A stretch of 64,000 nt of DNA from Chitinophaga agri. Lineage in GTDB: Bacteria; Bacteroidota; Bacteroidia; Chitinophagales; Chitinophagaceae. The notes beneath the pieces were generated by a model. That model searched no databases. It was not told the DNA's origin and saw nothing but the letters and a program-made list of their open reading frames with translations. This document shows positions 30,083-57,743 of the stretch, in pieces (within the stretch, counting starts at the first letter, position 1; the number at the start of each line of letters is the position of its first letter). A program made the position numbers and the translations under genes. The stretch spans positions 6,156,001 to 6,220,000 of the forward strand of contig NZ_CP048113.1 of NCBI RefSeq assembly GCF_010093065.1, read 5' to 3'.

Positions 30083-30093
30083 GATTCCGGATT

Positions 30094-35130: not shown

Positions 35131-35143
35131 TCATAAGCTCTTT

Positions 35144-38608: not shown

Positions 38609-38692
38609 ATAGCCCTATTTACGTTTAAATACAAAAGCAGCTTCAGTGATCAAGGATTGTGGGTCCGTTGCCGGACGATTATGCAATCAGCA

Positions 38693-39706
38693 TTATTTAT
38701 TTTTTAGTAGCACAGTGTCCTTTCCGATGGTATAGGAAAGTGATTCTGTCAGACAAATGGTTTCAATCACATTTGCCAGGGTTTCCTGTTTAAAATTGCC
38801 GGTATAGGTCCAGTCTTTCCTGCCGCTTTCATTGATGATCGTTACGCCATATCTGTTTTCAATGGCGATACGTACCTGTTCATAGGAAGCGTCTTTAAAG
38901 ATGAGGTAACCTTTTTGCCAGCCTATCGTTTCTTCCGCGTTAAAGTTTGTTTTAATGACATGGAGCGAACGGCGGTCAATGCTGGCCTGTTCACTGGGCT
39001 GTAAGATAACCGGCGGCTGGGATGTGGTGGTTACTTTTACCTTACCGGTCACGAGTGCGACGGTGATCTGTTGTTCGTGCGGATAGGCACGTACATTGAA
39101 TGTGGTACCGAGGGCGGTCGTGCTGACGTTGCCTGCGTGTACGGTAAATGCATTTTCAGGTACCGGGGCTGCGTCAAACCAGGCTTCCCCTTCTTCCAGG
39201 TAGATATCGCGGGTGTTACCAGTAAAATGCGCTGCGTAACGTATCCTGGTAGCGGCATTGAGCATGATCTTACTGCCGTCTTCTAATATGACCTGTTCCC
39301 GGTTACCTTTAGGATTGTTAATGGTGATAAAGCCATCAGCGACGGTACGGGTGCTTTCGATGATCTTTCCTGCCAGCGGCTGTTCAGGCGCGGCAGGATT
39401 GGCTGCACGTTGTTTTAACTGAAAGAACCAGGTAGCTGCTGCTACCAGCAGGGTAACGGCGGCGGCCACATAGTACCAGGAACGCGCGATGCTGCGTACC
39501 GGGGTGGCAGGTTGTATCTGGCTGATGAGCGTACGGTGTACTGTGGAGAGGTCCTGCCGGATCTCCTGCTCGCTTTTAGGCGACGTATATTGGTCTCCAA
39601 TGCTGTCGAACCACTGTTCGATGACTACTGTTTCTTCCGGGGTGCATTGGCCTTCGTTATAACGTTCTAATATTTTCCTGATCTGATCTTGCTCCACTGC
39701 TTGCAA
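38693..39706 (-). CDS. FecR-family anti-sigma factor
   Basis: This 337-residue protein has a cytoplasmic N-terminal part with WFDSIGDQYTS, one membrane segment (about residues 80-101), a FecR domain (DGFITINNPKGNREQVILED; FTVHAGNVSTTALGTTFNVR) and a C-terminal DUF4974-type domain (LIFKDASYEQVRIAIENRYG) that resembles STN. It should hold the ECF sigma factor inactive until the STN domain of SusC pair 2 reports ligand. It lies 54 bp after the sigma gene and 84 bp before the SusC gene. Confidence 0.93.
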   Translation of the reverse strand: MQAVEQDQIRKILERYNEGQCTPEETVVIEQWFDSIGDQYTSPKSEQEIRQDLSTVHRTLISQIQPATPVRSIARSWYYVAAAVTLLVAAATWFFQLKQRAANPAAPEQPLAGKIIESTRTVADGFITINNPKGNREQVILEDGSKIMLNAATRIRYAAHFTGNTRDIYLEEGEAWFDAAPVPENAFTVHAGNVSTTALGTTFNVRAYPHEQQITVALVTGKVKVTTTSQPPVILQPSEQASIDRRSLHVIKTNFNAEETIGWQKGYLIFKDASYEQVRIAIENRYGVTIINESGRKDWTYTGNFKQETLANVIETICLTESLSYTIGKDTVLLKNK

Positions 39707-39760
39707 TTTTGAAATGTCCCAATGATAATCTGATGTCGTACCAGAGAGCGATAGGTACCA

Positions 39761-40372
39761 TTACTCTGTAAAAAATGAGTACAGGGCCTGTGATGTGAGT
39801 AGAAACAGCACGAGGTCTGTTCTGGCATGATTAGCACGAAGTATCTTAAGGGCTTTGGTTATTTGATTTTTAACGGTTTGCTGTGAAAGTCCGAGTCTGA
39901 CTGCAATTTGCTCAACTGTCTGATGTTCAATGCGGCTGAGCATGAATATCTCTTTCATACGTTCGGGCAGATGGTTGATGGTCTCAAACACATCCTGCGT
40001 ACGGGCCTTGCTGTCAACCAGTTCGGCAATGCCGCCGGGTTGTACATCAAAGTGTTCAATCAGTTGCTGGAGATATTTGCGGTAGGTGGAGTTTTTACGG
40101 TAGATGTCGATGATCTTGTGTCTGGCAGACTGGTAGAGGTAAGACTTCAGCGATTCGTTAATGCTGATGGAATGGCGTCTTTCCCACAGGGAAGTGTATA
40201 GGTCCTGGAGGACGTCTTTACCGGCTTCAGCGCCGTCTATTTTGCTGAGAATGTAGAGGTACAGGGGATGACTATAACGCTCGTAAATAACGTTAAAAGC
40301 GTCTACACTGTCTTGTTGAAGCAGCAATAGTAATTCTTGGTCAGTATAATTACTATACATGGAATACAGCAA
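39761..40372 (-). CDS. ECF-type RNA polymerase sigma factor
   Basis: This 203-residue protein has region 2 (DAFNVIYERYSHPLYLYI; DVLQDLYTSLWERR) and region 4 (EQIAVRLGLSQQTVKNQITK, a helix-turn-helix) of extracytoplasmic-function sigma factors. Together with the FecR protein directly downstream it should switch on SusC/SusD pair 2 in response to the imported ligand. The C terminus has a short hydrophobic tail (LVLFLLTSQALYSFF), seen in some Bacteroidota members of the group. Confidence 0.93.
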   Translation of the reverse strand: MLYSMYSNYTDQELLLLLQQDSVDAFNVIYERYSHPLYLYILSKIDGAEAGKDVLQDLYTSLWERRHSISINESLKSYLYQSARHKIIDIYRKNSTYRKYLQQLIEHFDVQPGGIAELVDSKARTQDVFETINHLPERMKEIFMLSRIEHQTVEQIAVRLGLSQQTVKNQITKALKILRANHARTDLVLFLLTSQALYSFFTE

Positions 40373-41744: not shown

Positions 41745-42782
41745 GTGAAAGGAATATCCATTAAAGATATTGCCCAAGAGGCAGGTGTTTCTCCTACAAC
41801 AGTTTCTTTTGTATTGAATGGTAAAGGAAAGGAAAAAAGAATCAGTGAACAGGTCAGCAAGAGGATCCTGAAGATAGCCGGAAAACTGAAGTATAAGCCC
41901 AACCAGCTTGCCAGGGGATTACGCACAGGTAAGACAAAAACGATCGGATTAATGGTAGAGGATATTGCCAACATCTTTTTTGCCAACGTGGCCAAGGTCG
42001 TGGAAGACGAAGCAGATAAGTTCGGTTATAAGGTGCTTTTCGGCAGCACGGAAGACAATGAGGAGAAAGCCAAGGGTTTGCTGGAAGTACTGCGCTATCG
42101 CCAGGTAGATGGATATATTATTACGCCTACACTCAATCTTGATAAAGAAATTGCCTCGCTCCAGAAGCCGGTAGTGCTGATGGACCGTTATTTTCCCAAT
42201 ATCGCAGATTCCAACTATGTAGTAGTTGATAACTTCCAGGGAGCCTATACTGCTGTAAGCCATCTTGTAGAGCAGGGATATAAGAATATCGGTATCATAA
42301 CCACCACCTCTGCTCAGATACAGATGCAACAGCGCCTGGACGGCTTTGTAGATGCCCTCCAAAAGCATGGTTTGCCGGCGGGTAAGGAGGTGATCAAACG
42401 ACTGCCTTTTGACCTGGACCGGGCTGGATTTATCCAGGAGATCACCCTGTACCTGCAAAACAATAAGAACCTGGATGCACTGTTTTTTGCCACTAACTAT
42501 CTGGGTATCTGTGGAATAGAAAGTATTCGCTCCATCGGGCTGCATATCGGCACAGATATCGGTATGGTAAGCTTTGATGATCATGATATCTTCCGCCTGC
42601 ATAGCCCGTCTATTACGTGCGTGGCACAGCCGGTAGAAGAAATTGGCCGCCGACTGATACATATGCTGATTGCAGAACTGGAACAAACCACAGAGACACA
42701 CAATCCACAACACGTAGTACTCTCACTTGAGCTCAGAAAAAGAGAATCTTCCACGCCAGCTGTTCATCATTTAAATGCCTGA
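41745..42782 (+). CDS. LacI-family transcriptional regulator
   Basis: This 345-residue protein starts at a GTG with the classic LacI helix-turn-helix ISIKDIAQEAGVSPTTVSFV and hinge region (KYKPNQLARGLRTGKT), followed by a periplasmic-binding-protein-like sensor (about residues 60-335). It probably represses the SusC/SusD module that begins at 43271: a perfect CG-centred palindrome of LacI type lies in between at 43013-43024. The co-ligand is unknown, though sugars are typical. Confidence 0.93.
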   Translation: MKGISIKDIAQEAGVSPTTVSFVLNGKGKEKRISEQVSKRILKIAGKLKYKPNQLARGLRTGKTKTIGLMVEDIANIFFANVAKVVEDEADKFGYKVLFGSTEDNEEKAKGLLEVLRYRQVDGYIITPTLNLDKEIASLQKPVVLMDRYFPNIADSNYVVVDNFQGAYTAVSHLVEQGYKNIGIITTTSAQIQMQQRLDGFVDALQKHGLPAGKEVIKRLPFDLDRAGFIQEITLYLQNNKNLDALFFATNYLGICGIESIRSIGLHIGTDIGMVSFDDHDIFRLHSPSITCVAQPVEEIGRRLIHMLIAELEQTTETHNPQHVVLSLELRKRESSTPAVHHLNA

Positions 42783-43270: not shown

Positions 43271-46200
43271 ATGAGAAGATTACTGATCTTTTTATCGCTA
43301 TTCCTATGCGTATACATGAGTGTATCCGCCCAGGATAAACAGGCGGTATCAGGTACTATCAGAGACGCAGAAGGTAATCCACTGCCTGGCATTACGGTCC
43401 TCGAGAAAGGCACTAAAAACGGCGCACTTACAGATGCTGCCGGTTCCTTCAGATTTCAGGTCAACCCCAAATCTGTGCTGGTATTTTCCGGAATCGGATT
43501 TATCACACAGGAAATAGCTTTAAATGGCAATGGTTCTCTTAATGTGAGCATGGCTGTAGATAACAAGAACCTCGGTGAAGTAGTTGTAACGGCATTGGGT
43601 ATCAAACGTGAAAAGAAAACACTGGGTTACGCGCTGCAGGAAGTAGGTGGTGAACAACTGGTAGCCGCAAGAGAATCTAACCTGGCTAATGCCTTTACCG
43701 GTAAAGTAGCTGGTTTACAGGTATTACGTTCCAGTAACGGTCCTGCTGGTTCCACCAAAATTAACCTGCGTGGTAACAACTCACTGACAGGTACTAACCA
43801 GCCCCTGATCGTAGTGGATGGTATTCCACTGGATAACTTCACTGGTGCTACGAACAACGACTACTGGAACCCATCTAAAGACATGGGTAACGGTCTGGCA
43901 GATATCAACCCTGATGATATTGAATCTATGTCAGTGCTGAAAGGCCCTTCTGCTGCTGCACTGTACGGTTCCCGTGCTGGTAATGGTGTTATCCTCATTA
44001 CTACCAAAACAGGTAAAAAACAGAAAGGTGCTGGTATCACCTATACTTCCCAGGTAGGTTTCTCCGAAATCTTCGCAACGCCTGACAGACAAAACACTTT
44101 TGCACAGGGTGCTGAAGGTGTTTTCCAACCAGAAGGTACGAGCAGCTGGGGACCAGCTATCGCAGGCCAGAGCGTTACTGACTGGTCTGGTAAACAAGTA
44201 AACCTGCAGTCATATGATAACGTGAAGAATTATTTTGACAAAGGGTTTAACTTTAAGAATACGATCTCTTTCCAGCAACAGGTAAGTGAAGGTACTTCCA
44301 TCTATACTTCCATTACGCACCTGACTGACAAAGGTATTATCCCGGGTGCAAAATTAAATCGTACTAACCTGACTGCCCGTGCAGTATCGCGTTTTGGTGC
44401 TAACAAACGCTGGACAAGCGATACCAAGGTTCAGTACATCAATTCAAGAGCAAATAACCGTCCGCAGAATGGTGATAATACCAGCAACGTATTCCGTACG
44501 ATCTACATGCTGCCTGTAAACATCGATATCAGAGACTTCAGTGCGGCAAAAAGAGACAATGGTAAAATGTTATGGTATGGTTCCGGTAATGCGGTAAACC
44601 CATACTGGAGCAAACTGTATGACCTGAATGAAGACATCAGAGATCGTTTCCTGATGACGGGTTCATTAAAATATGACTTTACTTCCTGGCTGAATGCAGA
44701 GTTAAAAGCAGGTGCTGATATCTACGGTACTAATGCAGAAGCAAAACGTTACGCAGGTAGCCCTTCTCCTGCAAACGGAAGCTACAGCCGCAGCAAAGAG
44801 ACTTTCTCTGAGGTGAACTACAGTGCATTGCTCTCTGCCCGTAAAGACAACGTGTTCGGTAAACTGGGTGGTGCGATCACCGCTGGTGGTAACCTCATGA
44901 AACAACAGCGTGACCGTCTGGATGCAAGTGTTGGTGAACTGCAGATCCCTGACTTCTTTTTCCTGAACAACGGTAAATCTAATCCAAGCATTACACCGTC
45001 TTCTTCTGAAAAGAAAATCAACTCAGTATATGGTACTATCGGTGTAAACTGGGATGCTTACTGGTTTGTAGACGTAACACTGCGTAACGACTGGTCTTCT
45101 GCGCTGAGCAAAGCAAACAGATCTTACTTCTATCCGTCTTTCAGTACTTCCCTGATTGTGACTGATATGATCAGCCGCCTGGGTGGTGAAGTGCCTACCT
45201 GGATCTCTTATGGTAAAGTACGTGCATCTTATGCACAGGTTGGTAATGACCTCGCACCATACAGCCTGTACAATACCTATGAAGTAAGTAAAGACCCTAA
45301 CGGTAATACTGTTGTAAAAAGAAAGAACATTCTGTTCGATCCGAACGTAAGAAGTGAGTTGATCAAATCTGCGGAAATTGGTGCTGAACTGAAACTCTTC
45401 AACAACCGTCTGAGTGTAGATTTCGCATGGTATAAAACCAACGCTACCCGTCAGCTGATCGACCTGCCAATGGACCCACTGAGTGGCTATTCCAGCAAAA
45501 AGATCAACGCGGGCGATATCGAGAACAAGGGTATTGAGCTGATGCTGAATGCACGTGTCGTAGATAATCCAAAAGGTTTATCATGGGACCTGGGTGCTAA
45601 CTTCTCTAAAAACAAGAACACAGTTAATGAGATCGCACCAGGTATCGAACTGTATTCTTTAGGTGGATTTGACGATGTGCAGATCTATGCTAAAGCTGGT
45701 GAGAAATACGGTGAGATCTATGGTACTGCTTTCCAACGCGTAACTGACGCAAATAGCCCTGCTTACGGTAAGATGATCGTGAATGCAAGTGGTTATCCAT
45801 TAGCAACCGCTGGTAAAGTGAAACTAGGTAATCAGCAGCCAGATGCTATGCTGGGTATCACCAACACCTTCTACTATAAAAACCTGTCACTGGGCTTCCA
45901 GGTAGATGGTCGTTTCGGAGGTAAAATGTTCTCTGGATCCCTGTCTGGTTTACAAAGAGCTGGTGCCGCTGCAGAGACAGTTGTAAATGGCAAACGTGAT
46001 GATATTATCGTGGATGGTGTGATCTTCAACGATGTAACTAAAGCATACGATCAGAACACAGTTGCTGTAAGACCAGAACAATACTGGGCAAATGCACTGA
46101 ATGGTACTAACGTAGGTATCGTTGAGAACAACCTGTACGATGCATCTAACATCCGTCTGAGAAATCTGAACATCAGCTACAACCTGCCTTCTAAATTCCT

Positions 46201-46387
46201 TTCAAGAACACTTGTACAGAGAGCCAGTGTAGGTCTCTCCTGTAACAACGTTTGGCTGATCTCCAGTCACATGAAAGGTATAGATCCGGAGTCTGTATAT
46301 GCAACCAACACAAACGCGATAGGATTTGAAGCGGGTAGCGCACCTACTTCACGCACTTTCCTGTTCAATGTATCTGTTAGTTTCTAA
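43271..46387 (+). CDS. SusC/RagA-family TonB-linked outer-membrane transporter (pair 3)
   Basis: This 1038-residue protein has a signal peptide (MRRLLIFLSLFLCVYMSVSA), a carboxypeptidase-regulatory-like domain (VSGTIRDAEGNPLPGITVL), the hallmark EVVVTALGIKREKK, plug motifs (KINLRGNNSLTGTNQPLIV; LKGPSAAALYGSRAGNGVIL) and a barrel. It has no STN domain; control is more likely by the LacI-type regulator upstream. It heads a module of SusC, SusD, thioredoxin-like protein and copper monooxygenase. The next SusC (50903) heads a similar module. Confidence 0.95.
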   Translation: MRRLLIFLSLFLCVYMSVSAQDKQAVSGTIRDAEGNPLPGITVLEKGTKNGALTDAAGSFRFQVNPKSVLVFSGIGFITQEIALNGNGSLNVSMAVDNKNLGEVVVTALGIKREKKTLGYALQEVGGEQLVAARESNLANAFTGKVAGLQVLRSSNGPAGSTKINLRGNNSLTGTNQPLIVVDGIPLDNFTGATNNDYWNPSKDMGNGLADINPDDIESMSVLKGPSAAALYGSRAGNGVILITTKTGKKQKGAGITYTSQVGFSEIFATPDRQNTFAQGAEGVFQPEGTSSWGPAIAGQSVTDWSGKQVNLQSYDNVKNYFDKGFNFKNTISFQQQVSEGTSIYTSITHLTDKGIIPGAKLNRTNLTARAVSRFGANKRWTSDTKVQYINSRANNRPQNGDNTSNVFRTIYMLPVNIDIRDFSAAKRDNGKMLWYGSGNAVNPYWSKLYDLNEDIRDRFLMTGSLKYDFTSWLNAELKAGADIYGTNAEAKRYAGSPSPANGSYSRSKETFSEVNYSALLSARKDNVFGKLGGAITAGGNLMKQQRDRLDASVGELQIPDFFFLNNGKSNPSITPSSSEKKINSVYGTIGVNWDAYWFVDVTLRNDWSSALSKANRSYFYPSFSTSLIVTDMISRLGGEVPTWISYGKVRASYAQVGNDLAPYSLYNTYEVSKDPNGNTVVKRKNILFDPNVRSELIKSAEIGAELKLFNNRLSVDFAWYKTNATRQLIDLPMDPLSGYSSKKINAGDIENKGIELMLNARVVDNPKGLSWDLGANFSKNKNTVNEIAPGIELYSLGGFDDVQIYAKAGEKYGEIYGTAFQRVTDANSPAYGKMIVNASGYPLATAGKVKLGNQQPDAMLGITNTFYYKNLSLGFQVDGRFGGKMFSGSLSGLQRAGAAAETVVNGKRDDIIVDGVIFNDVTKAYDQNTVAVRPEQYWANALNGTNVGIVENNLYDASNIRLRNLNISYNLPSKFLSRTLVQRASVGLSCNNVWLISSHMKGIDPESVYATNTNAIGFEAGSAPTSRTFLFNVSVSF

Positions 46388-46406
46388 TTGCTGAAAAAAA
46401 GAATTT

Positions 46407-48299
46407 ATGAAAAGTATAATAAAGAGTGCTTGTATATTAATGGCCGGTAGCATGCTGTTTCAGTCATGTTCCAAATTCGAGGAGATTAATAATGATCCGA
46501 ATTCCGCAAACGAAAATCAGGTAGAAGTTGAATATGCCATCAATGGTTCCATTACAGGAGCACAGATGAATCCGGATGTGGCAGAACGTTCCTTCGTACT
46601 TTACTGGAAGACCGCAGGTCGTCAGCACAGACAGGGCGGTTTATCAAGCGGTGGCTATGATGATGGCTGGACAACAGCATATTACAACCAGGTATCTGGC
46701 TGGCTGAATGGTGTAAACCTGGCCGTGCAACTGGCGGAATCAAGAATTGCCAATAACACAGCGAAACCTCATACAAAAAACCTGTTGCAGGTAGCACGTA
46801 TCTGGAGGGCTTATCTGCTGAGTGAAGCATCTGATAACTTTGGACCAATGCCGATAGAAGGCTTCCAGGGTGTGAATCCTCAGTTTGTGAGTGTTAAGGA
46901 TGTGTATTATTACGCACTGAAAGAATTAACTGAAGCAGTTGCGGCGATCGATGAGTCTATTGCGAATGCAGATGGACTGAGCAGCTTTGATCCTGCATTT
47001 GGTTATAACTACAACAAATGGAAACGTTATGCTAACTCGCTGCGTATGCGTTTGGCAATGCGTTTATCAGAAGTAGATGCACAAAAAGCAAAGACTGAGT
47101 TTGAAGCAGCAGCGGCAAGTGGCTTGCTGATCACAGATGCTGATCATACATTTAAAGTACAGGAAAAACCAGGATGGGATGACCTGACGGGTGTCATGAG
47201 CCGTGAGTGGAATGCGCAGTTACTGTCTGCCACACTGAACAACCTGTATATTGGTCTGGGAGGCGTTACTTCTGAGCAACTGTTACCAGATTCGCTGCAT
47301 TCCCATATTAAGCCAGCAAATTATATCGGTCTGAAGTTTGCAGATCATATGGCATCTATGAGTAATGAGCCAACCATTGGATACTGGTTTGATGGTTTAC
47401 ATGCGGTGATCGACCCACGTGCTTACAAAACCTTCATTATTCCTGGTCAGTTCAATAATCCTGATTTCTCTCCGTATCCAACTTATACCAATGATGCGAA
47501 AACTGTAAAACGCAACATGGATGGTTATGGTGAGGTAGATGCATCATTTACCTGGAATGCCGCTACAACAGGTGACTGGGGTACAAAAGGAGCGAAAAAC
47601 TTCCTGTATACTTACCCAGGTACGAACCCTCGTCTGGCACAACGTTTCAGGAACAGCACTTCACAACGTATCTTCTTCGGACCATGGGAAACCTATTTCC
47701 TGCTGGCTGAAGGTGCTGTGAGAGGCTGGGCTACACCAGTAGCAGCACAGGCCGCGTACGAAACAGGTATTGCAAAGAGTTTCGAATACTGGGGCGTAAC
47801 AGATTATCTGTCTGCCTACCTGACTTCCGATTCATACAATAACGCGGGTACTTCTGTAAGATGGACACATACAGCAGAACCAGGTGCGTCTCATACAATG
47901 AATTATATTGATGCTTACACCAAGGCGCCAGGTACAGCGAATATCCTGTATCCTTCCAATACCCTGTATAAAGCAGGTGCTGTGAAGAATGACGCGTTGA
48001 CCAAGATCATCACACAGAAATTCATTGCTCAGGTGCCATGGTTACCACTGGAAGCATGGAATGATCAGCGCAGACTGGGCCTGCCATTCTATGAGAATCC
48101 GGCTATTGAGCGTCCGCTGCCAAATCTGCCAGGACTGACGGCGAGCAATTACATGACCAGTGATATTAAGTTCTTCCCACAGCGTATCAGATACCCAAGC
48201 AGCCTGGCTAACAGCAATGCGGCCGGTTATGAGCAGGCAGTATCACTCCTCGGAGGAGCAGATGCTGTACTGACACCGCTCTGGTGGGCTAAACACTAA
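46407..48299 (+). CDS. SusD/RagB-family outer-membrane lipoprotein, long form (pair 3)
   Basis: This 630-residue lipoprotein has the signal LMAGSMLFQSC with lipid cysteine followed by SKFEEINNDPNSAN, and ends TPLWWAKH. It is about 100 residues longer than the other three SusD proteins here; the extra sequence lies in the C-terminal half and may form extra ligand-binding loops. It lies 19 bp after SusC pair 3 and is followed by a strong terminator. Confidence 0.93.
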   Translation: MKSIIKSACILMAGSMLFQSCSKFEEINNDPNSANENQVEVEYAINGSITGAQMNPDVAERSFVLYWKTAGRQHRQGGLSSGGYDDGWTTAYYNQVSGWLNGVNLAVQLAESRIANNTAKPHTKNLLQVARIWRAYLLSEASDNFGPMPIEGFQGVNPQFVSVKDVYYYALKELTEAVAAIDESIANADGLSSFDPAFGYNYNKWKRYANSLRMRLAMRLSEVDAQKAKTEFEAAAASGLLITDADHTFKVQEKPGWDDLTGVMSREWNAQLLSATLNNLYIGLGGVTSEQLLPDSLHSHIKPANYIGLKFADHMASMSNEPTIGYWFDGLHAVIDPRAYKTFIIPGQFNNPDFSPYPTYTNDAKTVKRNMDGYGEVDASFTWNAATTGDWGTKGAKNFLYTYPGTNPRLAQRFRNSTSQRIFFGPWETYFLLAEGAVRGWATPVAAQAAYETGIAKSFEYWGVTDYLSAYLTSDSYNNAGTSVRWTHTAEPGASHTMNYIDAYTKAPGTANILYPSNTLYKAGAVKNDALTKIITQKFIAQVPWLPLEAWNDQRRLGLPFYENPAIERPLPNLPGLTASNYMTSDIKFFPQRIRYPSSLANSNAAGYEQAVSLLGGADAVLTPLWWAKH

Positions 48300-48315
48300 A
48301 AATATAATTTAGCAC

Positions 48316-48356
48316 AATAAAAAAGCCTCATGCTCGTTGCATGGGGCTTTTTTATT
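48316..48356 (+). terminator. Strong intrinsic terminator after SusD pair 3
   Basis: An 18-bp stem (AATAAAAAAGCCTCATGC against its complement, one G-U pair) with loop TCGTT, ending in a run of T. It separates the SusC/SusD genes from the downstream redoxin and monooxygenase genes. Confidence 0.9.
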
Positions 48357-48508
48357 ACATGTTTTAATTGTATCTTGCCCAGACGTGAAAAACTAAGGAA
48401 TAGTCAACCGGATCATCTTAATTTCTATGGAAGCCTGAGTACCAGTCATACCTACTCTGCATCTTCATTGACGATCTGATGTGCTGTTATGAGAAAACGA
48501 AAGTCACT

Positions 48509-49084
48509 ATGCCTAAAAAATTTGTGTGGGTCCTGTTATTTGGGCTGCTATCCTTACAAACCATTACGACACAACTGATAGCCAGCACCGGAGAGAACAC
48601 AGGCGGAAGATTAAAAGATTATAAGGGAAAGTTGCATACTATAAAGCCGAAGGGAAAAGCAGTGGTCTATCTGTTTCTTTCTCCGGAATGTCCGTTGTGT
48701 AAAAACTATGCACCGGTGTTACAGGCATTGCAAAAAAAATATCCTGAGGTGCAGTTCTACGGGATCGTTAGTGGTAAGACATTTACCAGAGCGCTGGTTG
48801 GCGAATACGCGAAAGATTATAAGATCACTTTTCCGATACTGATGGATCCTGATAAACAGGTAGCTGAGTATATGAGAGCGACCGTTACACCTGAAGCTTT
48901 GCTGATAGGAGAGAACGGAAAGGAATATTACCGCGGCCTGATAGACGACTGGGTAACTGGTTTAGGTACCAAGCGTGCAAAGGCGAGCAGGAAATACCTG
49001 GAGCTGGCAATAGAGAACCTGTTGTCCGGAAGTGAGTTGACTTATTCGACACAACCTATTGGTTGTCTTATCAGTAATTATTAA
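48509..49084 (+). CDS. Secreted thioredoxin-like redoxin
   Basis: The ATG at 48509 gives a 191-residue protein with a signal peptide (MPKKFVWVLLFGLLSLQTIT). An upstream ATG at 48479 would add ten residues that spoil the signal. The fold is thioredoxin/AhpC-like, with redox motif CPLC in LFLSPECPLCKNYAP and the cis-proline region ATVTPEALLI. It ends with STQPIGCLI, a tail I associate with redoxins fused to cytochrome c/copper monooxygenase proteins in other bacteria. Here the partner is the separate gene 22 bp downstream. It may keep cysteines or copper of that enzyme reduced. Confidence 0.82.
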   Translation: MPKKFVWVLLFGLLSLQTITTQLIASTGENTGGRLKDYKGKLHTIKPKGKAVVYLFLSPECPLCKNYAPVLQALQKKYPEVQFYGIVSGKTFTRALVGEYAKDYKITFPILMDPDKQVAEYMRATVTPEALLIGENGKEYYRGLIDDWVTGLGTKRAKASRKYLELAIENLLSGSELTYSTQPIGCLISNY

Positions 49085-49106
49085 TCAATACGCCAATCAG
49101 GTGAGT

Positions 49107-50432
49107 ATGCAGTGCAGGGTTGTCATCACATTACTTGTGATATTTTTATGGAGGATACAGGGTGCTTCGGCACAGAAAATAACGTGGAATCAGCACATTG
49201 CGCCGATCATTCACGCGAACTGTACACCCTGTCATAAGAAAGGAGATGCAGCACCATTTGAACTGGTGACTTATGATGATGTGGCCAAACGTGCCACGTT
49301 TATAAAACAGGTTACCCAAAGCCGGTACATGCCCCCATGGAAAGCGGATAGTCATTATGCCAGTTTTGCCAACGAGAGAAGATTGAAAGATGAGGAGATC
49401 GCTATGATCGCTGAATGGGCTGACAATAAAATGCCGAAGGGGAAAGAAGTGGCGGGACAGCCCGAACATTTCCTGGAGGGAACGCACTATCATCGTAAGC
49501 CTGATACGGTATTGCAGATGCCGCGTGCGTTTCATATCAAGGGCGACAACAAGGAACGGTTCATTGTATACAAGATACCGTATGAGATGGCGCAGGATAT
49601 GAATGTGGAAGCAATAGAATTTGTGTCTAATAACCGGAAGGTGATCCATCATGCGAACTATGAGATCGATGCCGTGCCTGATCTGGACATTTACGCAGGA
49701 ACAGATTATATCAACCTGACAGAAGATGACCGGGAAAAGTACATTCAGTATGTTCCTTTCCGGCAGCACATGATCTATTATGGAGGATGGATACCCGGAG
49801 CCACCTGTGAATCCTACCCTAAGAACATTGGCTGGATCCTGCCGAAACGTGGTGTCATCTTGCTCACTTTGCATTATGCACCAGTAGGAAAAGACGAAGA
49901 TAATATCAGTGGCATTCAGCTGTTTTTCACCAAAACGCCTGTAAAGAGGGAGATCAGAGCAGTGAGTTTCGGATCAGGCGGAGTAGGGCAGAAGGACATT
50001 GATCCCTACTTTTATATACCAGCGGATGCAGTAAAAACCTTCCGTTTGAAAGTTACAGTGCCTGAAGATCAATCAATTATGTATGTGTGGCCACATATGC
50101 ATTATATTGGAAAGACATTTAAGGCGTTTGGCGTTACACCCACCGGAGACACTGTTAAAATGGTATCAGTAACGGACTGGAGTTATAACTGGCAGGAGGT
50201 CTACTGGTATTCAAAGTTGTTAAAGTTGCCCAAGGGTACGGTCATCCATATAGAGGCGACATACGACAATACCGCTGCTAACCCGGCTAACCCATCGTCG
50301 CCACCACGGCTGATCTACTCCAGTGGAGATATGAAATCGACAGATGAGATGCTGACCTTAGTGATGCTTTATCTTACGTATGAGAAAGAAGACGAAACAA
50401 TTTCCCTGAAAAATGAAAACATTATGAAATAA
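49107..50432 (+). CDS. Cytochrome c / PHM-type copper monooxygenase (copy 1)
   Basis: Starting at 49107 the product has 441 residues and a signal peptide (MQCRVVITLLVIFLWRIQGA). Residues 25-115 carry one haem c site, CTPCH (39-43), with a likely distal methionine in YMPPW. The rest matches copper type II ascorbate-dependent monooxygenases: His181-His182, His256 (LHYAPVGK), HMH at 330-332 and Met415 in TDEML, which together supply all six ligands of the two-copper PHM/DBM site. It should hydroxylate a C-H bond outside the cytoplasm with electrons passing through the haem. The substrate is unknown. It is 22 bp after the redoxin. Confidence 0.82.
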   Translation: MQCRVVITLLVIFLWRIQGASAQKITWNQHIAPIIHANCTPCHKKGDAAPFELVTYDDVAKRATFIKQVTQSRYMPPWKADSHYASFANERRLKDEEIAMIAEWADNKMPKGKEVAGQPEHFLEGTHYHRKPDTVLQMPRAFHIKGDNKERFIVYKIPYEMAQDMNVEAIEFVSNNRKVIHHANYEIDAVPDLDIYAGTDYINLTEDDREKYIQYVPFRQHMIYYGGWIPGATCESYPKNIGWILPKRGVILLTLHYAPVGKDEDNISGIQLFFTKTPVKREIRAVSFGSGGVGQKDIDPYFYIPADAVKTFRLKVTVPEDQSIMYVWPHMHYIGKTFKAFGVTPTGDTVKMVSVTDWSYNWQEVYWYSKLLKLPKGTVIHIEATYDNTAANPANPSSPPRLIYSSGDMKSTDEMLTLVMLYLTYEKEDETISLKNENIMK

Positions 50433-50902
50433 GGTGTAATACTATTTTATTATTTCATTGTGTAAAATTCTCGTTTTAACCTGATTGTTAACAGGAACAC
50501 AAAAATCTGTTAAATCTTTCTTGTTGTTTCTGTTTTTATTTTTTAGCTTGGCATTCGAAAGAAAAATAAGAATATTATTTAATGTGTGAATTTGAGGAAA
50601 GCGAGAAAATAAATTAGGGACATGTAGAACAGTGGGAAGTATCAACAATGGAGGTAACTGGAATAAATACACCTATGCCGAATTATTTATCCCAGGTTAC
50701 CGTTTCGTAAGCTAATCATTGTAAGAAGAAGGAAACTGTGTTAGGCGGTATAACGAATCTGCTTTTTTTATCTCAGCATTGCAAGTAAATTTTTATGAAG
50801 GAACATAACAATGTAACCTCTTAATGGGAGAGGTGTATCTATACCTGTGTGTTTCATCTCGGACTAAACAAAACATAATAAACTAAAATCCAAAAGAAAG
50901 CT
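50433..50902. other. Control region of SusC pair 4, no gene
   Basis: This 470-bp AT-rich stretch has no credible gene. It contains the imperfect palindrome AGGTGTATCTATACCT near 50830 and ends in an A-rich leader just before SusC. I see neither an exact TAnnTTTG box nor a clear terminator for the preceding monooxygenase. Confidence 0.5.
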
Positions 50903-53900
50903 ATGCGAAGATCTCTCTTAGTGTGTACATTGCTTTTCTTATGCTGCTGCTTTACTGCGTTGGCACAGACTAAGATAGCGGTGACGGGAACTATCAAAGA
51001 TGCCAAGGGCACTCCTCTCCCTGGCGTAACCGTTAAAGAAAAGGGCGCTTCCAATGGCGCAATGTCAAATCCGGACGGAAGCTTCAAACTGTCAGTGCCA
51101 GGTGAAGCAACGCTGGTGATTTCGTATGTAGGGTTTGTTTCCCAGGAAATTCCAGTTGCAGGTAAAACATCTATCAATGTTACACTGCAGGAAGACAACA
51201 AAAACCTGAACGAGGTAGTTGTAACCGCGTTAGGTATTAAAAGAGAAACACGTGCACTCGGTTATGCAGTAAGCACTGTGAGTTCTAAAGATTTAACTCA
51301 GACTGCCAGCCCAACCATCGGTTCTGCATTGTATGGTAAAGCTGCAGGTGTGAAGATCGTTACTGCTCCAGGTGGTGCTGGTGGTGCGGTTTCTGTACAG
51401 ATCAGAGGTGTATCTTCTATCGGTCTGAACACACAGCCACTGTACGTAATTGACGGTGTGCCTATGAGAAACTTCAGCAACCCTGCGCAGAACTCCTTCG
51501 GTACCAGCAATGGTCGTATCGATGGTAACGGTGCGAATGACCTCAACCCTGAGGACATCGAGAGCCTGACCATCCTGAAAGGTGCGAGTGCAACTGCACT
51601 GTACGGTTCTGAAGCAACCAACGGTGTAGTAGTAATCACTACCAAGAAAGGTACTAAAGGTAAAAACGGTCTGGGTGTAGAAGCTAACTACTCTTACAAC
51701 CAGGAAAGACTGGCTCAGTCTCCTGATTTCCAGAATGAATATGGTCCTGGTTACAACCCAGCGCTGAACCTGTCTGCTACTGGCGGCCAGAGTGCGGAAG
51801 GTTGGTTCACTGAGGCAAATGGTGCTCTTCACCCTTACTATAGAGCTTATGGTCAGTTCGGTGCTAAATTCGACGGCCGTGAGGTTACTTACTGGGATGG
51901 TACTAAGAGAAAGTACGAAGCTCAGAAGAACAACTACAGAGATTTCTTCCAGACTGGTTACAACTCCCAGGCTAACGTAGCGATCTCTAACGCAAATGAA
52001 AAAGGTAGCTTCCGCTTCTCTTACACCCGTATGGACTATAAGAGCATCATGCCAGGAAGTAATCTGTATAAAAACAACTTCAACTTCAATGGTTCCCTGA
52101 AGCTGCACGAGAGAGTTACTTTAGATGTAATCTCTTCTTACAACAACTTCTTCAACCATAACCGTCCAAACGTACTGAACAACGTAACTAACTCTTACGG
52201 TGGTTATTTCAGCCGTTTTGATGATATGAACGTGTACAAAACAAGATTCCAGACCAGAGATGGTTACAAATATGTTCTGTACAACAACAACAGCTATGGC
52301 CAGGAAGATAAATTCCTGTACAATATCAGAGCTAACCAGCTGATGGACTACTTCTGGGATAACCTGCGTAACAGCTACGACGAGACCCAGAACCGTTTCA
52401 TCAACAGCGCAAGCCTGAATATTAAAGTGCTGGATAACCTGAACGTTAAAGGTAGAGTAGGTGGTGACTTCACTAACCTGTACGCTGCTGATATGAGACA
52501 TAACGAGCGTCCTGCCCGTCTTGGTTATTCTGGTATGTATGCTACTGAGAACAGAAACAACAACGTATTCTACGGAGACGTTATGGCTATCTACAATCCT
52601 AAGCTGACTAAGGATCTGGATATGACCATTACCGGTGGTTATACTGCACGTAAGACCACTTACAAATATGGTAAAACACAGACACAGGGTGGTCTGGTAA
52701 GCGAAAACTGGTTCAGCATGGGTAACTCTGCTCAACAGGTACAGGCTACTTCTACCCGCGCTACTCAGTACGATAACGCTGCTTTCGGTATCCTGAACTT
52801 TGCTTATAAAGGATTCCTGTATGTAGAAGGTACTGGTCGTTATGAGTCTACCAACACACTGGCGCCTGAAGTAAACTCTTACTTCTACCCTTCATTCAAC
52901 GCTGGTTTCGTATTCTCTGATGTAGTTAAGCTGCCTAAATTCTTCAGCTATGCTAAATTAAGAGGTGCGTACGGTTTCGTGGGTAACCACCCGAACCTGT
53001 ATCAGTCTAACATCCTGTACACTCAGTATGGTGCTGTTTACAACAACAACAACCTGCTGTACCAACAGCCTAATGGTTCTGGCTTCGGTAACAACAAGCT
53101 GAAATCTGAGAAAAAGAGAGAAGCTGAGATCGGTCTGGAAACAAGACTGCTGGATAACAAGATCAGCGTAGACCTGAGCTACTATAACAACAAAGTATCT
53201 GATCAGATCCTGTACAGATCCCTGGCATTATCTAACGGTGCTTCCAGCCAGCTGGTAAACGCCGGTGATATCGCTAACTACGGTTTTGAAGCTGCGATCA
53301 GCGCTACTCCGATCGAAAGCAAAGATTTCCGTTGGACTACCCGCTTCAACTTCGCTATCAACAGAAACAAACTGGTTAGACTGCCTGATGGTCAGACTTT
53401 CCTGGATGCAACCAACCTGGATAACGCTTATGTAGTTATTCGTTCAATGGTAGGTGAGTCCCTGGGTAATATCTATATCCACCCACACAACTACGATGCG
53501 AAAGGTAACAAGATGGTAGATGAGTACGGTCTGTACACTATCAATACCAACGAATACGTTCAGGCTGGTAGCATTCTGCCTAAACTGGTTGGTGGCTTCT
53601 CTAACACCCTGAGCTATAAAAACTTCTCCCTGGACTTCACACTGGATTACCGCTTTGGTGGTAACCTGATCTCTACGCCGACCTATTATATGCTCGGTGC
53701 TGGTATGTTCGAGTCTACCCTGCAGTACAGAGATGCAGCACGTGGTGGTCTGTCTTACAACCCAGTTGGAGACGAAGCTTCTCAGGATCCAAGCAAATAC
53801 ACTTACCAACTGGCTGCTAATGGTTCTCGTCATGACGGTATGATCCTGCCAGGTACTAAAGCTGATGGTACGCCAAACGACAGAGTTATCTCTGCTGCTG

Positions 53901-54211
53901 ACTACTATCTGAATAACTACACATGGGGTGGTAACGGCGATTATAGCGCTGCAATCTTCAAAAACAATTACATTAAACTGCGTGAGGTAGCGGTAACTTA
54001 CAACCTGCCACAGTCTATCTCTGACAAAATGCGTTTCCAGGGCATCCAGGTGTCTCTGATCGGACGTAACCTGCTGTACGTTTACAAATCTCTGCCTTAC
54101 GGTATCGATCCTGAGGTGGGTGTTGGTTCCAGCTGGTTATCTCAGGGTATCGACAACGGTACTGCTGGTCCTACAAGAAGCTTTGGTGCAAGCATTCGTG
54201 CTCGTTTCTAA
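50903..54211 (+). CDS. SusC/RagA-family TonB-linked outer-membrane transporter (pair 4)
   Basis: This 1102-residue protein has a signal peptide (MRRSLLVCTLLFLCCCFTAL), a regulatory-like domain (VTGTIKDAKGTPLPGVTVKE), the hallmark EVVVTALGIKRETR, plug motifs (SVQIRGVSSIGLNTQPLYVI; LKGASATALYGSEATNGVVV) and a barrel. Codon choice is very uniform (AAC for Asn, CTG for Leu, GGT for Gly, CGT or AGA for Arg), stronger than in pairs 1 and 2, which suggests high expression. It heads the second SusC-SusD-monooxygenase module. Confidence 0.95.
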   Translation: MRRSLLVCTLLFLCCCFTALAQTKIAVTGTIKDAKGTPLPGVTVKEKGASNGAMSNPDGSFKLSVPGEATLVISYVGFVSQEIPVAGKTSINVTLQEDNKNLNEVVVTALGIKRETRALGYAVSTVSSKDLTQTASPTIGSALYGKAAGVKIVTAPGGAGGAVSVQIRGVSSIGLNTQPLYVIDGVPMRNFSNPAQNSFGTSNGRIDGNGANDLNPEDIESLTILKGASATALYGSEATNGVVVITTKKGTKGKNGLGVEANYSYNQERLAQSPDFQNEYGPGYNPALNLSATGGQSAEGWFTEANGALHPYYRAYGQFGAKFDGREVTYWDGTKRKYEAQKNNYRDFFQTGYNSQANVAISNANEKGSFRFSYTRMDYKSIMPGSNLYKNNFNFNGSLKLHERVTLDVISSYNNFFNHNRPNVLNNVTNSYGGYFSRFDDMNVYKTRFQTRDGYKYVLYNNNSYGQEDKFLYNIRANQLMDYFWDNLRNSYDETQNRFINSASLNIKVLDNLNVKGRVGGDFTNLYAADMRHNERPARLGYSGMYATENRNNNVFYGDVMAIYNPKLTKDLDMTITGGYTARKTTYKYGKTQTQGGLVSENWFSMGNSAQQVQATSTRATQYDNAAFGILNFAYKGFLYVEGTGRYESTNTLAPEVNSYFYPSFNAGFVFSDVVKLPKFFSYAKLRGAYGFVGNHPNLYQSNILYTQYGAVYNNNNLLYQQPNGSGFGNNKLKSEKKREAEIGLETRLLDNKISVDLSYYNNKVSDQILYRSLALSNGASSQLVNAGDIANYGFEAAISATPIESKDFRWTTRFNFAINRNKLVRLPDGQTFLDATNLDNAYVVIRSMVGESLGNIYIHPHNYDAKGNKMVDEYGLYTINTNEYVQAGSILPKLVGGFSNTLSYKNFSLDFTLDYRFGGNLISTPTYYMLGAGMFESTLQYRDAARGGLSYNPVGDEASQDPSKYTYQLAANGSRHDGMILPGTKADGTPNDRVISAADYYLNNYTWGGNGDYSAAIFKNNYIKLREVAVTYNLPQSISDKMRFQGIQVSLIGRNLLYVYKSLPYGIDPEVGVGSSWLSQGIDNGTAGPTRSFGASIRARF

Positions 54212-54244
54212 TATGTAATTGTAAAATCGGATAAATAGAAAATA

Positions 54245-55852
54245 ATGAAAAAGATCTTCATAAATATAGCTCTTGTCTGCACGCTCGGTGGCTTATTCAG
54301 CTCCTGCGCCAAGAAGATGGAGGAAACATATACTGACCCGGAGAAAATCGTCGATGGTTCCCTGAGCAAACTGCTGTCAGGTATGTATCTGAACAAAAGA
54401 ATACACCCGTCTTACTACGATTATTATACATTCGTAATGCCTGTACTGGCTAACTACTCTCAGTTAGTAGCGACCGCTCCGGGTAACCAGATGTATTTCA
54501 CCAACCCATCTTATGTAGATGGTCGCTGGCAGGATTTCTACGCAGGTTCCCGTGCGAACGATGGTGATAACCCGGATTATAACTATAATGGTCCTGGTAT
54601 CATGAGTAACTACCGTGAGATGCAAACTACTCTGAGTTTAATGTCTGCTGAACAGCAGCAAAGAAACCAGGTGTTTGTGAAAGTTGCGGAGATCCTGGTA
54701 TTCGATCAGGCTGCCCAAATGGTAGACATGTGGGGTGATATCCCATTCAGCAAATCAAATGGTCTGAACAGCCCTGATCGTACGGCTGCCGACGTTCCTT
54801 ATGATGATGCGAAAACATTGTACACTAACATCATCGCAAACCTGAAAGCGATCAACACTTTCCTGGATACAGTAAATGTTGAAACTGATGTTAAGAACGA
54901 ACTGGCTACTGCTGACATTCTGCTGAAAGGTGACCTGGTTGCATGGCAGCGTTACGCAAACTCTCTGCGTCTGCGTCTGTTAATGCGTATCTCTAATGCT
55001 GATGAAGCGACCGCAAAAACTGAGGTGACTGCTATGCTGAATGATGCAGCTACCTTCCCGGTTATTGCTTCTAACGATCAGAACGTAACTTTCAAGAACA
55101 GCCCTACCCAGGTTAGAAGTGACCTGGTTGAAGTGTTCACTGGTTACCCATACGCTCCTGAATATCTGATCAACACTCTGCAGGAAGCTAACGGCGACCC
55201 TCGTTTAAGAGTAATGTGGGATCAGGATGATGTGAACGGTTACAAAGGTTTCCCATGGAACGGTAGTGTTGGTGACTACGATGACCAGCGTCGTTTATAC
55301 GCTGTATTCGATACTGCTACCTTCACTTACAATGATAACATCCCTGGTGTGATCATGACAGCTTCTGAAGTAAACTTCCTGAAAGCTGAAGCTTTTGAAA
55401 GATGGGGTCTTGGTGATGCAGCTGCTGCATACACTAACGGTATCAGACAGTCTATTGAGTTCTACTACGGTATCAACCAGTCTGCTATCAAGAGACAAGG
55501 TCAGAACAACTTTAGCCGTGCTGCACTGGCTTCTCCTGCTGCAACTGAAGTAGACGCATTCCTGGCTAAAGCACCTATTGCTTACACCGGTACTACTACA
55601 CAGAAACTGGAGAAGATCTACACGCAGAAATGGGAACACTTCTTCGTACTGCAAAGCGGTCAGGCTTGGTCTGAGCTGAGAAGAACAGGTTATCCTGCGC
55701 TTCAGTTCCCAACTGTAGGTAACTCTGCAGCGCCTAACGCGCCTAAGCGCCTCCTGTATCCAGCTAACGAAAGACTGTACAACCCAATTGAGTACAGTAA
55801 AGTTAAAGACAAGGATACCCGTGACAGGCCAGTATTCTGGGATGTTAACTAA
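54245..55852 (+). CDS. SusD/RagB-family outer-membrane lipoprotein (pair 4)
   Basis: This 535-residue lipoprotein has the signal CTLGGLFSSC with the cysteine followed by AKKMEETYTDPEK, and the C-terminal pattern LRRTGYPALQFP common in the group. It lies 33 bp after SusC pair 4 and shares its strong codon bias, so both are probably made in large amounts. A clear terminator follows at 55878. The ligand is unknown. Confidence 0.93.
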   Translation: MKKIFINIALVCTLGGLFSSCAKKMEETYTDPEKIVDGSLSKLLSGMYLNKRIHPSYYDYYTFVMPVLANYSQLVATAPGNQMYFTNPSYVDGRWQDFYAGSRANDGDNPDYNYNGPGIMSNYREMQTTLSLMSAEQQQRNQVFVKVAEILVFDQAAQMVDMWGDIPFSKSNGLNSPDRTAADVPYDDAKTLYTNIIANLKAINTFLDTVNVETDVKNELATADILLKGDLVAWQRYANSLRLRLLMRISNADEATAKTEVTAMLNDAATFPVIASNDQNVTFKNSPTQVRSDLVEVFTGYPYAPEYLINTLQEANGDPRLRVMWDQDDVNGYKGFPWNGSVGDYDDQRRLYAVFDTATFTYNDNIPGVIMTASEVNFLKAEAFERWGLGDAAAAYTNGIRQSIEFYYGINQSAIKRQGQNNFSRAALASPAATEVDAFLAKAPIAYTGTTTQKLEKIYTQKWEHFFVLQSGQAWSELRRTGYPALQFPTVGNSAAPNAPKRLLYPANERLYNPIEYSKVKDKDTRDRPVFWDVN

Positions 55853-56426
55853 TCTTAACTTCCTGTAATGATATCCGAATAGGGGCCAGCCTGAGTGCTG
55901 GCCCCTATTTATTTTTATAAAGTACCGTTATACTCCTGTACACACATATCTCTCCAAAGACAGTGTGAGGACGGTAATGCGGTCGCCTTTCATGTTATAA
56001 AAGAAGGCAGCAGTGGCAGTATCTACCTCGTCACGCTTACCAGAAGTGCAATAACCCTGTTAAATACAACGTCCCCGGCATTTCCTGTTTATCTTGAGCA
56101 GACATCATCAGGTACTTGTACATTACATGCACATGTATGCGCTTCTTCCCCCGTACTAATGGCTGGTGTAGTATGAGATCATTATAGCAGTGAAACCTAT
56201 GGTTGCGATGCTGGTCACGCGAATGGTATAGTGCATGTCGAGTTCTTTGGCGCATGTCAGTTGTACAATATCGTTTTTACCATCGAGCTCTCCGTTTGTG
56301 GGGTTTAAACCATTGTTCTGTTAACGGGTTTTCAGGCAGGAAAGAGCATTCCGGCCTGTTTTTACATCCTCTTTTGCAGCTTTTTATATACCTTACAGGT
56401 CTTAACTGATTCCTTATCCTGTGAAA
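55853..56426. other. Intergenic region before monooxygenase copy 2, no gene recognised
   Basis: These 574 bp begin with the terminator at 55878-55909. The remainder lies where module 3 has its redoxin gene. I looked for a redoxin remnant (CPxC motif, cis-proline motif) in all frames and found none; short open frames here resemble nothing. A weak hairpin CAGGC/GCCTG lies near 56333-56358. Confidence 0.5.
55878..55909 (+). terminator. Intrinsic terminator after SusD pair 4
   Basis: AATAGGGGCCAGC and its complement form a 13-bp perfect stem with loop CTGAGT, followed by TATTTTTA. Confidence 0.9.
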
Positions 56427-57743
56427 ATGCTGCACAAAGGTTTTATATCATTTTGTTGCGCCCTTCTGCTGATCCTGCCGGTACGTTATGTGCATGCACA
56501 GCAGGTGACCTGGTCCGGGCATATCGCTTCCATTATCCATACAAACTGCACTCCCTGTCATCGCCAGGGTGAAGCCGCTCCCTTTGCACTCGTTACCTAT
56601 GACGATGTGGCCAAAAGAGCCAATTTTATTAAGCGTGTTACAGAAAGTCGCTACATGCCACCGTGGAAACCTGATCCGCATTACGTGTCTTTCGCCAATG
56701 AAAGAAGACTGACAGAGGAAGAAATTAAACTCATCGGGGAATGGGCTGAAAATGGGATGCCTAAAGGTGAGGGAACTGTTAAAGAAATACCACAGCAATA
56801 TGTACAGGGTACTTCTTATCACCGCGCCCCCGATCTTGTACTCAAAATGAATTCGTCCTATACGCTGAAAGGCGATAACGTAGAACGCTTTATTGTGTAT
56901 AAACTACCTTTTGAACTGCCTGATTCTATGGCGGTAGAAGCTATTGAATTTACTTCCAATAATCGAAAGGTCATTCATCATGCCAACTATGAGATCGACA
57001 ATGTGCCTGAAGCAGACTTCCATAATACAGCCGACTATGTGGATAACACAACGTCACAACTGGACTACTATCAACAGTATGTCAGCTATCGTAAAAACAT
57101 GCAGTATTTCGGAGGATGGATCCCTGGCAGCAGTTACGAATCTTATCCGGAGAATATAGGATGGATGATGCCTAAACGGGGTGTCGTGCTGTTAAGTGTA
57201 CATTATGCACCAGTAGGGAAAGATGAAGAAGTGATCAGTGGTGTACATTTCTTCTTCCGCAAGAAGCCGGTAAAACGGATCATCAGAGCCACTACATATG
57301 GCTCCGGCGGAATAGGAGAGAAGGATATTGATCCATTTTTTTACATCCCGGCGAATGCGGAAAAAAGTTTTAAACTGAGTGTGAAGCTAACAGAAACCCA
57401 ATCGCTGATGTACGTGTGGCCGCATATGCACCTGCTGGGCAAGGCCTTCAAAGCGTTTGCCGTAACGCCCGATAAAGATACTGTCAAACTTGTCTCTATT
57501 CCACAATGGGATTTCAACTGGCAGGAAATATACTGGTTCCCAAAACTGGTAAAACTGCCTAAAGGTACCATCGTTACTATACAGGGTGAGTACGATAATA
57601 CGGTAAATAACGCCGTCAACCCGTCCTTCCCACCACAACTGGTTTATGGTGCGATGCGTACAAAAGATGAGATGCTGACAATGATCATGATGACGTTGTC
57701 ATATGAGAAGGGAGATGAGGAACAGGCGTTAAAACGGCCGTAA
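56427..57743 (+). CDS. Cytochrome c / PHM-type copper monooxygenase (copy 2)
   Basis: The ATG at 56427 gives 438 residues with a signal peptide (MLHKGFISFCCALLLILPVR); a GTG two codons earlier is possible. It is a close homologue of the protein at 49107: CTPCH at 41-45 with YMPPW, His184-His185, His259, HMH at 333-335 and Met416 in KDEML. All expected ligands of one haem c and two copper ions are present. It should be a periplasmic or surface hydroxylating enzyme. It follows SusC/SusD pair 4 but is separated by a terminator, so it probably has its own promoter. No redoxin accompanies this copy. Confidence 0.82.
   Translation: MLHKGFISFCCALLLILPVRYVHAQQVTWSGHIASIIHTNCTPCHRQGEAAPFALVTYDDVAKRANFIKRVTESRYMPPWKPDPHYVSFANERRLTEEEIKLIGEWAENGMPKGEGTVKEIPQQYVQGTSYHRAPDLVLKMNSSYTLKGDNVERFIVYKLPFELPDSMAVEAIEFTSNNRKVIHHANYEIDNVPEADFHNTADYVDNTTSQLDYYQQYVSYRKNMQYFGGWIPGSSYESYPENIGWMMPKRGVVLLSVHYAPVGKDEEVISGVHFFFRKKPVKRIIRATTYGSGGIGEKDIDPFFYIPANAEKSFKLSVKLTETQSLMYVWPHMHLLGKAFKAFAVTPDKDTVKLVSIPQWDFNWQEIYWFPKLVKLPKGTIVTIQGEYDNTVNNAVNPSFPPQLVYGAMRTKDEMLTMIMMTLSYEKGDEEQALKRP

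Follow-up and report, generated by a model that had tools for sequence, protein, structure and literature searches.

This analysis concerns two gene modules in a stretch of 64,000 nucleotides (nt) from Chitinophaga agri (contig NZ_CP048113.1, positions 6,156,001 to 6,220,000), here called the window; its own numbering is used throughout. Each module encodes a SusC-SusD importer (SusCD) followed by a remote relative of the copper monooxygenases of the DBM/PHM type that also carries a haem c motif. The best explanation as a whole, to which we give a probability of about one half, is that the two SusCD importers are associated with haem-wired periplasmic copper monooxygenases, which would oxidise the compounds that SusCD imports. 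The enzyme core is of DBM/PHM type, but no description of this architecture and genetic setting was found in the open-licence papers, where nothing contradicted an earlier, sequence-only reading that knew of no characterised pathway of this kind. The genes of the two modules are:

43271..46387, plus strand: SusC1, a TonB-dependent importer (TIGR04056, E 9e-189; also matched in Pfam)
46407..48299, plus strand: SusD1, its surface lipoprotein partner (PF12741, E 3.8e-57)
48479..49084, plus strand: redoxin, an AhpC-TSA-like thioredoxin-fold protein with CPLC and C-terminal GCLI cysteines (PF00578, E 9.3e-10)
49059..50432, plus strand: haem c / dicopper monooxygenase 1 (60% identity to copy 2; ligands conserved in 130 of 130 rows)
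50903..54211, plus strand: SusC2 (TIGR04056, E 2e-176; also matched in Pfam)
54245..55852, plus strand: SusD2 (PF12771, E 1.5e-62)
56421..57743, plus strand: haem c / dicopper monooxygenase 2, with its start at GTG 56421 or ATG 56427 (AlphaFold model; Foldseek matches to DBH and PHM)

The start of monooxygenase 1 is probably GTG 49101 or ATG 49107, as judged by eye. The host genome is a single contig of 7.97 Mb, its nearest named relatives are Chitinophaga, and it holds two monooxygenase matches at E<=0.001, both in the window. The same gene order had been claimed for both modules; this is correct for SusC-SusD and then the monooxygenase, all on the plus strand, but not for the redoxin, which occurs in module 1 only.

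The evidence for calling these proteins monooxygenases comes from profiles, ligands and fold. The ligand set pointed out in the sequence-only reading (CxxCH, HH, H, HxH and M) was recovered in both copies. In monooxygenase 2 it is placed as follows:

56547..56561, plus strand: haem c motif CTPCH (C43, C46, H47), conserved in 130 of 130 rows
56655..56657, plus strand: Met79, the probable second haem ligand (a role assigned by inference), conserved in 130 of 130 rows
56976..56981, plus strand: His186-His187, CuH ligands, aligned with DBH H262/H263
57201..57203, plus strand: His261, third CuH ligand, aligned with DBH H333
57423..57431, plus strand: His335-x-His337, CuM ligands, aligned with DBH H412/H414
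57672..57674, plus strand: Met418 in DEM, CuM ligand, conserved in 130 of 130 rows; PHM has the same DEM motif

In monooxygenase 1 (numbering of the 457-residue product), the haem ligands are C55, C58, H59 and M91, and the copper ligands are H197, H198 and H272 (CuH) and H346, H348 and M431 (CuM). All ten ligands (C43, C46, H47, M79, H186, H187, H261, H335, H337 and M418) are conserved in 130 of 130 rows, that is, in all collected sequences of at least 380 residues, 127 of them distinct; 88 of these rows came from a peptide-pattern scan whose patterns overlap some of the ligands. Forty rows came from a profile search in which the ligands were not required, and the full set was present in 40 of 40. 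The invariant columns of alignment A1 (64 sequences: the window's two enzymes plus 62 of the 88 rows of full length from the pattern scan) likewise include all ten. Among the genomes sampled from the window's class, 146 of 296 contain a relative of the enzyme, and the haem motif was found in each of the 40 sequences fetched among those relatives. We infer that the monooxygenases are loaded with haem and copper; the host genome has two matches to PF01578, a cytochrome c assembly family.

No Pfam curated cut-off was passed by either window monooxygenase: PF03712 (12.4 and 18.4 bits, compared to a cut-off of 23), Haem_bd and Cytochrome_CBB3 were found only below it, and the copies were therefore filed as remote DBM/PHM relatives and not as Pfam members. 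Among the A1 members, PF03712 matches 43 of 64 at E<=1e-3, and the cytochrome families match 22 (CBB3) and 19 (Haem_bd) of 64 at the same threshold. Compared with the PDB, the A1 profile had human DBH as its best match (E 0.0018), and a profile-profile comparison with that DBH stretch gave E 2.2e-6 and a probability of 89%. Five enzyme histidines stand in register with DBH H262, H263, H333, H412 and H414 in the A1 profile alignment (DBH numbering implies a 39-residue offset; 412 and 414 were computed, and 262, 263 and 333 were counted by hand), and these five are among the DBH copper ligands listed in PMC4846438. The CuM ligand Met418 falls outside the DBH profile alignment. The AlphaFold model of monooxygenase 2 has a mean pLDDT of 90.2 and a pTM of 0.84. 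When this model was compared to the PDB with Foldseek, the best 50 of 1433 matches (E<=10) were inspected: the top 31 were all DBH or PHM (E 3.5e-13 to 5.1e-9), and the first match outside these had E 6.1e-6 and TM 0.15. Because of the profile, register and Foldseek matches to DBH and PHM, there is a strong case for a core with the DBM/PHM tandem-domain fold, preceded by an N-terminal haem c domain.

The earlier proposal tied the importer to this enzyme and suggested a search for the pair in other genomes. The pair does recur in many genomes. Within one clade of the enzyme tree, comprising 75 enzyme genes in 60 loci, of which 73 could be judged, a SusD gene lies at most five same-strand genes upstream of 69 of 73 enzyme genes. 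The sister clades gave 0 of 49, with a SusD model that was built from this locus set and could miss other SusD types in sister loci; these loci were mostly shorter, about 15 kb, and hand-chosen from the best genome-survey matches (40 fetched). The linked clade (SH-aLRT support 93, not starred) includes Chitinophaga, Pedobacter, Ferruginibacter, Dyadobacter and others. A redoxin gene lies upstream, by the same criterion, in 66 of 73 cases in this clade, compared to 26 of 49 in the sisters. On the enzyme tree (115 enzymes, 15 near-copies having been removed from the 130), the SusCD-linkage label needs 6 changes, compared to 38.1 in shuffles, with none of 500 shuffles as low. From a count of SusC candidates in the host genome (the best 56 of 167 were scored), we estimate that chance adjacency to SusCD would concern roughly 1 gene in 20 at most. 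The association between SusCD and the enzyme is strong, and the linkage is more than chance.

Six clade genes had no SusD in view. In L065 and L081 SusCD apparently does lie upstream, separated from the enzyme by a reverse open reading frame (ORF) that was called in error; in L072 and L110 it adjoins the enzyme on the other strand; L083 is located where its contig ends; and in L039 there is a long ORF that looks odd. A supposed SusCD link outside the clade, L136, was discarded, its second gene being by eye a hydrolase and not a SusD. In two sister-clade loci (L114:3019-6937 and L131:2393-6330), the enzyme is preceded by what seems to be the same pair of genes, of about 632 and 649 residues. 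The redoxin and enzyme of L095, from an uncultured Latescibacteria chromosome, are placed inside a Bacteroidota sister clade; transfer between phyla or a binning error is possible.

The two modules had been regarded as one duplicated module. A block duplication was rejected, since the SusCs share only 29% identity compared to 60% for the monooxygenases, the SusCs fall on separate branches, and the redoxin is found in module 1 only. SusD1 and SusD2 share about 28% identity over 146 residues. The SusC tree was built from 68 rows longer than 700 residues, all from SusCs of these loci, with eight near-copy loci omitted. In it, SusC1 stands beside a second SusC from a monooxygenase locus of Pedobacter caeni, to which it is 58% identical, and SusC2 shares a group with the second SusC of L032 and with the SusCs that precede the enzyme in L040, L041 and L044-L046. 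In the enzyme tree, copy 2 lies in a branch of 11 rows and copy 1 in a branch of 6 rows, both in one 22-row Chitinophaga group, the inner forks of which are partly open. In L040, L041 and L044, two enzyme genes adjoin without SusCD between them. We read these sequences as the outcome of a tandem enzyme duplication, with importer pairs inserted or exchanged. The SusCs linked to the enzyme fall in several branches of the SusC tree, which we read as partner exchange; such exchange is likely in a tree limited to these loci.

Elsewhere in the genome, the best match of SusC2 is at 3.85 Mb, with 46% identity and 1001 bits; as a match to SusC2, SusC1 scores 377 bits (33%). The closest paralogues of SusC2 and SusD2 (46% and 36%), in the region from 3.838 to 3.857 Mb (L157), are followed by a gene that looks by eye sialidase-like. 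The solved chains nearest to SusD1 are SusD homologues including the chitin-binding AqSusD, those nearest to SusD2 include the mixed-linkage-glucan SGBP-B, and BT2263 is a further SusD matched by both. In Chitinophaga sedimenti (L080), the SusC gene 5' of the enzyme reads as five ORFs, through decay or sequencing error.

The redoxin ORF of module 1, which the sequence-only reading had missed, overlaps the monooxygenase 1 ORF by 26 nt. Across the ten two-module loci compared, the arrangement ranges from an overlap of 26 nt with the enzyme ORF to a spacing of 23 nt, which suggests that the two genes are probably translationally coupled. Among 84 redoxins taken from the loci, Cys71 is conserved in 84, Cys74 in 65 (17 have Ser) and the C-terminal Cys196 in 83. 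The nearest solved chains are of the thiol-disulfide isomerase/thioredoxin and ResA types, and our guess is that the redoxin serves as electron donor or as metal-site reductant. In module 2, the gap between SusD2 and the enzyme measures 568 nt, compared to 35 to 186 nt in nine relatives. A tblastn search of this gap (55853-56420) with the 84 redoxins gave no convincing remnant (best E 0.045), and the middle of the gap (55912-56347) had no blastn match in the compared loci except the window's own copy.

By eye, each of the two window enzymes carries a signal peptide and lacks a lipobox. A sorting domain of the type IX secretion system (T9SS) is found in 14 of the 64 A1 members. A T9SS tail model, built from the C-terminal 85 residues of the long enzymes (30 of them at most), matched 33 of 59 enzymes without SusD upstream, compared to 0 of 71 with SusD; these counts include a few near-copies, and the six clade genes in which no SusD was seen are counted among the 59. 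Oxidation had been proposed at the surface or in the periplasm: since a signal peptide is present without a lipobox or a T9SS tail match, the periplasm is favoured and the surface becomes the less likely site. This suggests that relatives of the enzyme are often secreted, and that the importer-linked clade would be periplasmic. Two terminator-like hairpins were also noted:

48316..48356, plus strand: hairpin 3' of SusD1, 18 pairs, from the consensus scan only
55877..55910, plus strand: hairpin 3' of SusD2, 14 pairs and then a T-rich tail, from the consensus scan only

The scan found 17 hairpins overall, compared to 12.9 +- 3.8 in shuffles. L032 has a hairpin at the same place, 3' of its SusD2 (by eye).

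Neighbouring genes bear on the substrate. One regulator precedes module 1:

41745..42782, plus strand: LacI-family regulator, 5' of module 1 (Pfam PF00356/PF13377)

Related loci of Chitinophaga also have a LacI-family regulator in this upstream position. In Pedobacter and Ferruginibacter, many loci have the series ROK, SusC, SusD, redoxin, enzyme, FG-GAP/UnbV and PAP2, often with glycoside hydrolases (GH) of families GH29 and GH3. Over the 60 clade loci, ROK was counted in 26, UnbV in 21, PAP2 in 19, GH29 in 17 and LacI in 12; with models built from the clade loci, none of the five was found in the 49 sister loci. Pfam was run on two sets of neighbour proteins, one of 10 and one of 46; in the larger set, Alpha_L_fucos is matched by 21 proteins and PAP2 by 17, which equals the numbers of GH29-cluster and PAP2-cluster members entered. 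For the GH29 background, 12 genomes were chosen and 9 counted: they hold 115 GH29 genes in 53.9 Mb, about 2 per Mb or 0.05 per 21-kb locus. GH29 occurs in 6 of the 9 enzyme loci of these genomes; because enzyme loci are related, this enrichment is not an independent count. In Flavihumibacter soli (L047, L147 and L148; NZ_JAAFZB010000086.1), the enzyme is surrounded by GH3, GH92, GH20 and PNGase F-like genes, by a GH125-like gene (by eye, resembling one tested in L066), and by all four GH29 genes found in that genome; genes resembling those for L-fucose uptake and oxidation were noted by eye, and Pfam assigns them to general families only. With ROK, FG-GAP/UnbV, PAP2 and GH29 in part of the relatives, a glycan or glycoside is indicated as substrate, which we offer as a reasoned guess. 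Two narrower ideas were dropped: that N-glycan is the substrate as a general rule, and that UnbV and PAP2 are partners of this enzyme only.

Several observations weigh against the proposed explanation. The pairing of redoxin and monooxygenase without SusCD in 26 of the 49 sister genes means that the core function need not be related to import. The hairpins after both SusDs mean that co-transcription of the enzymes with SusCD is not assured, and enzyme 2 may be transcribed separately. Pfam found no glycoside hydrolase among the window module genes, and GH29 was not seen in 43 of the 60 clade loci. PNGase F lies inside or at the edge of a fetched stretch with the enzyme in only 1 of 29 PNGase F-positive genomes, that of Flavihumibacter soli (40 genomes were searched, and positions were compared by hand with the fetched stretches), which is why N-glycan is not general. 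Finally, a locus of the host's own genome (L156, 3.266-3.284 Mb) has SusC-SusD-UnbV-PAP2 without a monooxygenase, so that UnbV and PAP2 accompany SusCD alone.

Another conceivable target of the enzyme is the non-sugar portion of a glycoside taken up by SusCD (a plant aglycone, phenolic or saponin), with enzymes of the GH29, GH3 and GH78 types stripping the sugars. The substrate of DBH, dopamine, is a small aromatic compound (PMC4846438), some relatives carry plant-related record names, and one locus has a GH78-type rhamnosidase. The GH92 and GH125 mannosidases and GH20 of some loci fit a glycan better, however, and we regard an aglycone as unlikely. Less probable again is that the redoxin and the haem-copper protein form a general redox or copper-handling unit, to which SusCD is a chance neighbour or a supplier of copper or haem: the redoxin-enzyme pair of the sister clades and the varying SusC partners would suit such a unit, but the linkage of 69 of 73 compared to 0 of 49 holds across several SusC branches, and sugar-type regulators and glycosidases accompany part of the loci.

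The residues of PHM that clamp the peptide carboxylate are, we assume, R240, N316 and Y318 (the residue letters were confirmed). They occur in 0, 2 and 17 of the 130 rows, respectively, and never two in the same row; at these positions the two window enzymes carry W/T/I and W/T/V. These residues not being conserved, the enzyme was not filed as peptide-amidating, and the earlier idea of peptide amidation is weakened. That SusCD imports peptides, which the enzyme modifies as PHM does, is accordingly improbable, even though the fold and the six copper ligands are those of PHM and both SusDs match BT2263, presumably part of a peptide importer: by eye, no lyase (PAL) gene was noticed, and the named neighbours are mainly GH29, PAP2, UnbV and GH3.

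Taken on its own, the explanation that we prefer, in which an imported compound is oxidised in the periplasm, is plausible to likely. The ligand would cross the outer membrane via SusCD and is most likely an oligosaccharide or glycoside. The enzyme's CuM site would then bind O2 in the periplasm and hydroxylate a C-H bond of this ligand, perhaps, at a guess, as an oxidative dealkylation or an activation step. Electrons would reach CuH via the fused haem c and not from ascorbate, and the neighbouring redoxin would either supply electrons or maintain the residues that bind metal in a reduced and loaded state. The location in the periplasm, the route of the electrons, the hydroxylation and the class of substrate are each put forward here as presumed. 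A broader view is tentative, and we hold it with somewhat less assurance: a widespread bacterial branch of the DBH fold would have a fused haem c, in place of ascorbate, as its electron entry, and one lineage of it would have dropped T9SS and become the periplasmic oxidative first step of SusCD uptake, with the importer exchanged and the monooxygenase retained, to give a new type of oxidative utilisation locus.

The large clade ties a DBM/PHM relative to nutrient import. If the enzymes are active, copper oxidation joins the known ways in which imported glycans and glycosides are enzymatically processed, and the electron supply of the DBM/PHM fold becomes open to study in a bacterial protein with a built-in donor domain. 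Outside the modules, the gene after monooxygenase 2 is on the opposite strand and mutS-like (by eye). The minus strand of the window (28496-40372) carries two more SusCD pairs with FecR-like and sigma-factor-like genes (by eye), which lie outside the finding.

Compared with known systems, the modules share with SusCD polysaccharide utilisation loci the SusC-SusD pair, a sugar-type regulator and, in some relatives, glycoside hydrolases. What is conserved downstream, however, is a redoxin and a haem-copper monooxygenase, and the window modules have no glycosidase. A monooxygenase in a carbohydrate utilisation pathway is described for porphyran, where a P450 carries out oxidative demethylation of 6-O-methyl-galactose (PMC10033563); this P450 belongs to another enzyme class, and the analogy concerns mechanism only. 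With PHM, the window enzyme has in common the fold (TM reaching 0.67 when normalised by target length), the ligands and the DEM motif. It differs from PHM in its added haem c domain, in the peptide-carboxylate residues, and in the lyase partner, none being noticed nearby by eye. With DBH and tyramine beta-monooxygenase (DBM), it shares the two-domain CuH/CuM fold and the HH-H and HxH-M ligands, at 16% identity in the structural match. The DBM/PHM enzymes that have been solved or studied are animal proteins fed by ascorbate (PMC4846438 and PMC6123673), and DBH has a DOMON domain according to the former; the window enzyme is bacterial, has an N-terminal haem c domain in the place of DOMON, and is encoded beside SusCD and a redoxin.

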